A stretch of DNA of 64,000 bases, taken from contig NCGO01000001.1 in assembly GCA_002256985.1 (NCBI GenBank), forward strand, positions 310,001-374,000. Direction: 5' to 3'. The first letter of the stretch is position 1. Every line of letters begins with the position of its first letter. Source of the DNA: Novosphingobium sp. 28-62-57. Its GTDB lineage: Bacteria > Pseudomonadota > Alphaproteobacteria > Sphingomonadales > Sphingomonadaceae. The notes beneath the pieces were generated by a model, which did no database searches, was not told the origin of the DNA, and saw nothing but the letters and a program-made list of their open reading frames with translations. Made by a program: the position numbers and the translations under genes. Below, in pieces: positions 11,969 through 12,554 of the stretch.

Positions 11969-12096
11969 CCACCACCCCCCGACCCCCTCCCTCGAAGAGG
12001 AGGGGGAGAAGAAGGCAAAAGCCCTCTCCGTGCAAGAGGAGGGGGAGCAGAAAGCAAAAGCCCCCTCCTCTTTAGAGGAGGGGGTTGGGGGTGGTG
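11969..12096. repeat. Palindromic repeat family A, copy A1 (compound)
   Basis: Begins CCACCACCCCCCGACCCCCTCC and ends GGAGGGGGTTGGGGGTGGTG, complementary ends. Inside lie three AAGAGGAGGGGGAG-type hairpin units. It immediately precedes the DUF559 gene. The same family recurs at 12462-12541 and inside ligA at 13064-13157. Confidence 0.9.
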
Positions 12097-12113
12097 TTTC
12101 CCGCCGCCAGACC

Positions 12114-12554
12114 ATGCTGCACCGTGCCGCAAAAATGCGCCGTGAGCCTACGGAACCTGAACGCAGGCTTTGGATGGCACTGCGGGACAGCAGGCTGGGT
12201 GGATACAAGTTCCGTCGACAGAAGATTGTGGGACATCGGATTTTCGACTTCTTTTGTCCGGCAAAGCTGCTGGCAGTTGAGGTTGATGGGCAGACCCATG
12301 ACCGTGAGCGGGACTTGCTCAGAGATGAAGCGCTTGAACGCACAACCGGAATAACGATCATCCGCTTTACCAACGAAGATATCATGACAAATCTGGAGGG
12401 CGTTCAGACGGCTTTGCTGGTTGCGCTGCAATCGCGGCCTGATCGTTGGAGCGGAGGCGATCACCACCCCCCGGCCCCCTCCTCTGAAGAGGAGGGGGGG
12501 AAGAAGGTAAAGGCCCCCTCCTCTGAAGAGGAGGGGGAGAAGGTTACGCTATGA
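12114..12554 (+). CDS. DUF559 (PD-(D/E)XK, Vsr-like) endonuclease domain protein
   Basis: Product of 146 residues. The first 110 form a DUF559 domain (PF04480, distantly related to the Vsr mismatch nuclease): [28 protein letters not shown] and [11 protein letters not shown], containing the conserved Asp, Glu and Asp of the fold. The ATG at 12114 follows repeat A1; the frame also extends upstream through the repeat to a TTG at 11961. There is no stop after the domain. The frame continues through repeat A2, adding a low-complexity tail rich in PSSEEEG, and ends in a TGA overlapping the ligA ATG. Nuclease activity is inferred from the family. No methyltransferase or transposase is adjacent. Confidence 0.85.
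12462..12541. repeat. Palindromic repeat family A, copy A2 (partial); carries the ligA ribosome-binding site
   Basis: Starts TCACCACCCCCCGGCCCCCT and contains two CCTCTGAAGAGGAGG hairpins. The closing TTGGGGGTGGTG end is absent. The last unit, GAGGAGGGGGAGAAGG, lies seven to fifteen bases before the ligA ATG and is the only purine-rich Shine-Dalgarno candidate there. It also encodes the C-terminal tail of the DUF559 protein. Confidence 0.85.

Follow-up and report, generated by a model that had tools for sequence, protein, structure and literature searches.

Results

The window analysed here, a stretch of 64,000 bp (positions 310001-374000 of contig C1) in the 4.10 Mb genome of Novosphingobium sp. 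28-62-57 (G000), contains two nuclease genes of the DUF559 family (PF04480), each lying between inverted palindromic elements. The gene of the first unit, the A type, begins with an ATG at 12114 and extends on the forward strand to 12554. The left bracket, A1 (11969..12096, forward strand), reads as three hairpins in a row, of which two are imperfect; the innermost (12062-12083) bears the tail GTTGGGGGTGGTG toward the nuclease gene. The right bracket, A2 (12462..12541, reverse strand), is the inverse of A1 and consists of the tail CACCACCCCCCGG followed by hairpins at 12476-12497 and 12515-12536. The nuclease frame passes through A2, which is translated as the C-terminal part of the protein, and its stop codon (12552-12554) overlaps the ATG at 12551 of the adjoining host gene ligA, which encodes the NAD-dependent DNA ligase (12551..14803, forward strand). 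A short A doublet without assigned strand (13064..13158) lies within ligA itself in frame, with hairpins at 13078-13099 and 13123-13144 and tails pointing outward.

The second unit, of the D type, is arranged similarly. Its left bracket (52609..52661, forward strand) comprises an outer hairpin, a second small hairpin and a tail; the nuclease part follows at 52741..53093 on the forward strand, with the domain match beginning at 52726; and the right bracket (53094..53148, reverse strand) is the inverse of the left one and is read through in frame. The host gene ispE, with GHMP kinase domains (53155..53952, forward strand), continues the same frame. Positions 52741-53952 are accordingly a single open frame of DUF559, D palindrome and ispE, and a fused protein is possible. 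The DUF559 profile scores 100.1 bits in the A-type frame and 76 bits in the D-type frame, at a cut-off of 20.6. Both bracketed genes and the copy inside ligA had been claimed in an original prediction made from the letters of this DNA, and all three are confirmed.

To express the degree of bracketing, the 300 bp preceding each DUF559 domain were aligned locally with the reverse complement of the 300 bp following it, and the best alignment score was recorded. Loci scoring at least 16 were taken as bracketed, with windows of equal size from other parts of these loci as controls. The A unit scores 23 and the D unit 34. The A hairpin pattern, with up to three mismatches, occurs in 69 places of the genome and its reversed-letter control in none (dispersal was counted genome-wide for the A family only). 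When sequences were folded as DNA, none of 200 shuffles matched the A elements, and 3 and 4 of 200 matched the two D elements. The brackets in the window are not due to chance, since 69 hairpin places stand against none and the scores of 23 and 34 stand against control windows of which 5 in 4093 reach 16.

Bracketing of DUF559 genes by inverted hairpin-and-tail elements is real and general. In a set of 86 loci, made up of 80 relatives from the strong end of the matches listed (some near contig ends were skipped) and the six matches of the Novosphingobium sp. 28-62-57 genome, 69 are bracketed, far above the 5 of 4093 control windows; the closeness of gene and repeat proposed in the original prediction therefore exceeds random placement. 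Four of the six own-genome loci are bracketed (L001, L003, L005 and the A unit, L004). L002 scores 8 and has a palindrome on a single side, as judged by eye; L006 scores 10, is unbracketed and has lost several catalytic residues. Within the genus, 76 of 100 Novosphingobium matches were tested, the remainder being mostly weak, and 50 of the 76 domains are bracketed: 45 of 55 at profile scores of at least 90 bits and 5 of 21 below. Among the best 80 of at least 579 relatives in named genomes, 56 are bracketed against 4 of 2799 control windows, including 47 of the 70 loci not labelled Sphingomonadales. Bracketed loci in this set extend to Rickettsiales, Rhizobiales, Beta- and Gammaproteobacteria, Gastranaerophilales, Kuenenia, Rokubacteria and FCPU426. 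As a negative control, ParE toxin genes of comparable size were scored likewise, and none of 30 loci is bracketed.

These controls bear on the possibility that the brackets arise by chance or as an artefact of GC-rich intergenic repeats. C-rich hairpins are indeed abundant in some genomes, and a few brackets are short or low in complexity (L274, L277 and L331 among the low-scoring ones, L277 being a run of C). Control windows from the same loci, the ParE genes and the reversed hairpin pattern, which gives 0-4 places per genome, are all near zero; for this reason such a background is rejected, its probability being negligible.

The usual bracket consists of an outer hairpin (CCCTCTCCC..GGGAGAGGG, CCCCTCCC..GGGAGGGG or similar) and an inner G-rich tail (TTGGGGAGAGGGG or similar) that points toward the gene on both sides. 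Some brackets, those of the D unit among them, hold an extra small hairpin between the outer hairpin and the tail. A sequence expression for the C-rich stem is matched by 154 of 169 units. The same A ends also occur without a gene in the Novosphingobium sp. 28-62-57 genome, where at least nine pairs with inward tails measure 77-79 bp from hairpin to hairpin; these look like the DUF559 unit minus its gene. Other spacings, pairs with outward tails as in ligA and single A hairpins are present as well. The mid-gene doublet in ligA is found only in G000 and G181 among 18 aligned ligA loci, and the ligA stretch of G000 exceeds the shortest aligned ones by 102 bp. A hairpins stand in frame at two distinct places of ligA, mid-gene in G000 and G181 and near the start in G164 (L262, at about 1880).

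The DUF559 unit appears to move as a block. Two loci of genome G117 with different surroundings share 491 bp at 96.3% identity, a segment that spans the unit with both its palindromes and a further 28 bp or so on one flank; a third copy in the same genome is 78-79% alike. At one orthologous site, about 10-20 bp in L094 correspond to a unit in L078, L108, L124 and L135. The junction between recN and ligA is likewise empty in G172, G161, G188, G183, G169 and G158, where the two genes adjoin directly (2-17 bp). The A unit lies between them in G160, and in G000 and G159 the order is recN, a small gene, the A unit and ligA. The ligA site further holds a unit in G181 and a broken unit in G178, and in G156 a worn right-hand palindrome alone remains; other members of the genus have different DNA between recN and ligA, or recN is not seen. 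At a trp site, L138 lacks the unit but carries other DNA in its place, and for this reason is a weaker example of an empty site.

The sequence of the palindromes follows the type of the nuclease. Among 13742 non-syntenic pairs from different genomes, hairpin similarity tracks DUF559 similarity with a rho of 0.32, the maximum of 300 permutations being 0.13. In 61 of 75 untied cases the hairpin is nearer to that of the closest foreign DUF559 homologue than to the mean of the other units in its own genome. This set comprised the 173 bracketed domains minus L270, L308, L317 and L006 as presumed duplicates; the twins L074, L086, L178 and L003 had been removed earlier, and those four units are thus absent from it. 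The dependence of repeat family on DUF559 type that the original prediction had put up for testing is therefore seen at non-syntenic sites between genomes.

The abundance of hairpins is also linked to the nuclease. Among 149 genomes, those with more DUF559 matches tend to hold more C-rich hairpins (rho 0.60). A strong DUF559 match (best E-value at most 1e-20) is present in 111 of them, and 51 of these hold eight or more such hairpins; none of the other 38 does, of which 20 have no match and 18 have weak ones. Among 42 Novosphingobium genomes, A hairpins are absent from 30, and each of the four richest (55, 48, 35 and 28 hairpins) carries an A-type DUF559 at the ligA site, which in one case is broken.

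Profile positions D45, E56, D58 and H62 are near-invariant in DUF559 domains. Across 236 domains, brackets accompany 169 of the 212 in which all four residues are intact and 4 of the 24 in which they are not; in the genus alone the proportions are 46 of 51 and 3 of 22. The matches in L184 and L280 were excluded for short flanks, and one of the domain collections omitted L325, which has a stop, and 16 further named loci. The four bracketed exceptions each deviate at a single residue: L094 and L186 at D45, L231 at D58 and the own-genome L003 at H62. The unbracketed broken domains have mostly lost several. L006 (which adjoins the bracketed L003), L199-L206 and L241-L246 have lost catalytic residues and have no palindromes; they look like retained, inactive relatives of the nuclease.

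Neither DUF559 frame of the window matches the transposase family Y1_Tnp (PF01797) or the Vsr family at an E-value of 0.001 or below in a Pfam scan. The genome has one Y1_Tnp match, RAYT-like (L067:1200-1450), with a repeat of its own, GGTGACACTTTACTAAATCCCC, alongside. A RAYT or other transposase acting in trans might in principle move the palindromes and take the DUF559 gene along as cargo, and in other bacteria RAYTs are thought to spread repetitive extragenic palindromes (REPs) (PMC3116915, PMC3733652). The sole candidate gene, however, adjoins different repeats (GGTGACACTTTACTAAAT), and the A and D elements, as read, have no GTAG tag. We reject this explanation as very improbable on account of those other repeats. 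Two further candidates were rejected: a known RNA element, since the window has no Rfam match at or above the gathering score of the family concerned (a divergent intron could escape such a search), and a defence system, as PADLOC gives weak matches only (at most 15.9 bits).

Small GIY-YIG genes of the Sphingomonad family were run as a comparison family, with long UvrC-like frames excluded. From the strong end of more than 150 matches listed, 49 small loci were taken (L378 omitted), and, unexpectedly, 38 of them are bracketed at a score of at least 16: 20 of 29 in a first set, where 2 of 232 control windows score as high, and 18 of 20 in a second, where none of 160 does. Their brackets use other palindromes, CGTCATGCTGAAC..TTCAGCATCCA, CCGTTCGTCCTGAGC..TCGAAGGAC and CCCCGCGAAGGCGGGG. 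The C-rich expression matches none of the 18 bracketed loci of the second set; the 20 of the first set were judged by eye. The types seen at L350-L379 and L410-L429, which include relatives and own-genome loci, are inverted CGTC-like or TGAGC..TCGAA palindromes.

Several other repeats of the window resemble the palindromes around the three small GIY-YIG genes of the same genome (L410, L369 and L411). The repeat CCGTTCGTGTCGAGCGAAGTCGAG lies at 2132-2155, 2463-2486, 14327-14391, 33882-33945 and 47644-47707, and also beside L410. The repeat CCCCGCGAAGGCGGGGACCTC, at 28374-28448 and 59607-59739, resembles the bracket of L369, and a facing pair of CGTC-type palindromes at 20581-20670 is similar to those around L411. 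Tandem repeats of 48 bp and 16 bp occupy 5011-5154 and 37786-37865, respectively. In a tblastn search with 12114-12461, DUF559 relatives of less than 60% identity were found in 38 of 72,556 plasmid records, mostly on large replicons (Azospirillum, Deinococcus, Sinorhizobium and others).

Discussion

Comparison across genomes documents the inverted bracket and its generality, the presence or absence of the unit as a block, its copies at different sites, the co-variation of nuclease and palindrome, and the association of the bracket with an intact catalytic motif. We consider it probable that the DUF559 nuclease and its palindromes form a mobile partnership resembling that of RAYTs and REP doublets forming hairpins (REPINs), built on an unrelated nuclease similar to Vsr and I-Bth0305I, with cutting and movement presumed. 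The gene and its two inverted hairpin-and-tail elements, roughly half a kilobase together, would constitute one mobile unit. The DUF559 protein would recognise its own hairpin-and-tail family and cut at or beside the ends of these elements, in the unit or at the target; repair or strand transfer would then copy the palindrome-bounded segment elsewhere, either together with the gene or without it. Short gene-less doublets with the same ends would be non-autonomous relatives moved in trans. From these sequences we infer both the agency of the DUF559 protein and every chemical step of the unit's mobility. The RAYT-like partnership of the original prediction is supported to this extent, and recognition, cutting and spreading by the protein would be its conditional part.

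The chief rival explanation, homing, also makes the DUF559 protein the agent. The gene would be that of a free-standing homing endonuclease, entering existing palindromic doublets or a fixed target in the host, with the cut repaired from an occupied copy; the palindromes would be the target or homology arms, spread by other means. The closest solved fold outside the DUF559 family is indeed that of the homing endonuclease I-Bth0305I, with which the catalytic domain shares its fold, and the gene sits between the arms of what elsewhere is a short doublet. In other genomes the orthologous position is commonly occupied: no fewer than 500 of 833 flank pairs are filled, and the unfilled ones number at most 333, an upper bound because some hold a DUF559 gene missing from the tally (for example L074, L148, L149 and L157). 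However, no doublet is present at the empty site of L094 or at the empty ligA junction of six genomes, units occur in many differing surroundings, and palindromes without the gene increase in number too, in parallel with the gene from genome to genome. We regard homing as unlikely, though worth keeping in view.

Less likely still is a role for DUF559 as a normal Vsr-like repair nuclease of the host, around which terminators or insertion-prone repeats have gathered. Its fold is of the PD-(D/E)XK/Vsr type, and the Caulobacter DUF559 protein VsrA (CCNA_02930) is a predicted mismatch-repair endonuclease that causes an SOS response in cells without a cytosine methyltransferase (PMC12907096). Against this explanation, the two sides of a bracket are inverted copies whose sequence varies with the DUF559 type, ParE genes have no brackets, and motif-broken relatives are mostly without them; a genome with DUF559 genes has 1-10 matches, and one genome contains near-copies at different sites. 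We judge a pure host repair role improbable.

The repair function predicted for VsrA counts against a mobile unit of nuclease and palindromes, and other observations weigh on the same side. The bracket score stays below 16 in 17 of 86 and 24 of 80 loci, including both Anaerolineae loci, and the few short or low-complexity brackets belong here as well. By the pattern used, 60 of the 111 genomes with a strong DUF559 match have fewer than eight C-rich hairpins, and G160 bears an A unit yet only 2 A hairpins. Of the 24 motif-broken domains, the majority seem to belong to a single related group and are therefore not independent, and kinship is uncorrected in the catalytic-motif, co-variation and hairpin-count comparisons. 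A clear target duplication was sought at the L094, trp and ligA sites and none was established; a possible old duplication of 20-30 bp, next to what is inserted at ligA in G160 and G164, is seen by eye only. Spread of the repeats independently of DUF559 genes, which the original prediction had named as its own undoing, is found in part. None of the 38 genomes lacking a strong match is rich in C-rich hairpins, but G166, G164 and G167 have 15, 13 and 8 A hairpins, and none of their DUF559 matches examined is of the A type (1 of 1, 2 of 2 and 3 of 5, respectively; G166 is 80% complete and has no ligA match). One A hairpin of G164 lies within the 5' end of ligA. Gene loss would explain the A hairpins of these three genomes.

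The mobile partnership, if true, would provide orphan repeat classes with a mobility system and DUF559 with a function, and would explain the in-frame entry of repeats into essential genes, as in ligA. DUF559 genes are bracketed in most tested loci across Alpha-, Beta- and Gammaproteobacteria and some other phyla, and the pairing of GIY-YIG genes with palindromes is seen in the Sphingomonad family. We know of no transposase assignment for either nuclease family. It would be a balanced bet that DUF559 and small GIY-YIG nucleases, both of homing-type folds, are dedicated mobilisers of two large and separate palindrome classes: C-rich hairpin-and-tail elements, perhaps including RIME-like ones, for the former and CGTC or TGAGC..TCGAA REPs for the latter. 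Each would carry its own family and act on it in trans, in parallel to RAYT and REPIN but by another chemistry. Palindromic repeats are frequent in bacterial genomes. In a 2013 survey, the GTAG class is the only one among them with a dedicated enzyme, the RAYTs (PMC3733652). The partnership of nuclease and palindrome is open to bench testing.

No paper pairing DUF559 with palindromic repeats, or combining Vsr with repetitive extragenic palindromes, was found in a literature search that excluded subscription papers and preprints. Of 14 papers naming DUF559, none also mentions repetitive extragenic elements; two in which DUF559 and palindromes both occur (PMC8861277, PMC9454445) look unrelated from their titles and opening abstract lines. 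GIY-YIG and repetitive extragenic palindromes occur together in one paper (PMC9465073). Homing endonucleases of the I-Bth0305I type are called EDxHD. DUF559 has the fold of their catalytic domain in common with I-Bth0305I and differs in that its gene lies between palindromes, in a window with no Rfam family at gathering score. It differs from Escherichia coli Vsr in the same position between repeats and in the absence of a Vsr match at the threshold given above. The DUF559 brackets of Rhizobium and Mesorhizobium (L288, L280, L291, L319 and L334) look like Rhizobium-specific intergenic mosaic elements (RIMEs). RIMEs are listed among rhizobial intergenic repeats without known function (PMC2573895). 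The CGTC-tagged REPs, found mainly in Alphaproteobacteria, are short and often paired palindromes for which the 2013 survey gives no known transposase (PMC3733652). The DUF559-linked elements are also short and often paired, but they are C-rich (CCCTCTCCC..GGGAGAGGG and similar) and, as read for A and D, have no CGTC-type terminal tag; the CGTC-like palindromes of the present genomes bracket GIY-YIG genes, not DUF559.

The closest resemblance is to RAYT and REPIN. That system has a nuclease gene beside its own palindromes, dispersed inverted doublets, and enzyme and palindrome types that co-vary (PMC3116915, PMC3733652, PMC8266576). All three features recur with DUF559. The gene of the A unit (L004) is bracketed by a palindrome family dispersed over 69 places of the genome, inverted doublets stand at a set spacing (at least nine at 77-79 bp with inward tails), and enzyme and palindrome types vary together. 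The differences lie in an enzyme of Vsr-type fold with no Y1_Tnp match and in elements that bear a G-rich tail such as TTGGGGGTGGTG, not a GTAG tag, in the A and D tails read. The DUF559 system would thus be filed as one that appears to work like RAYT and REPIN but departs from them in the defining enzyme and tag.
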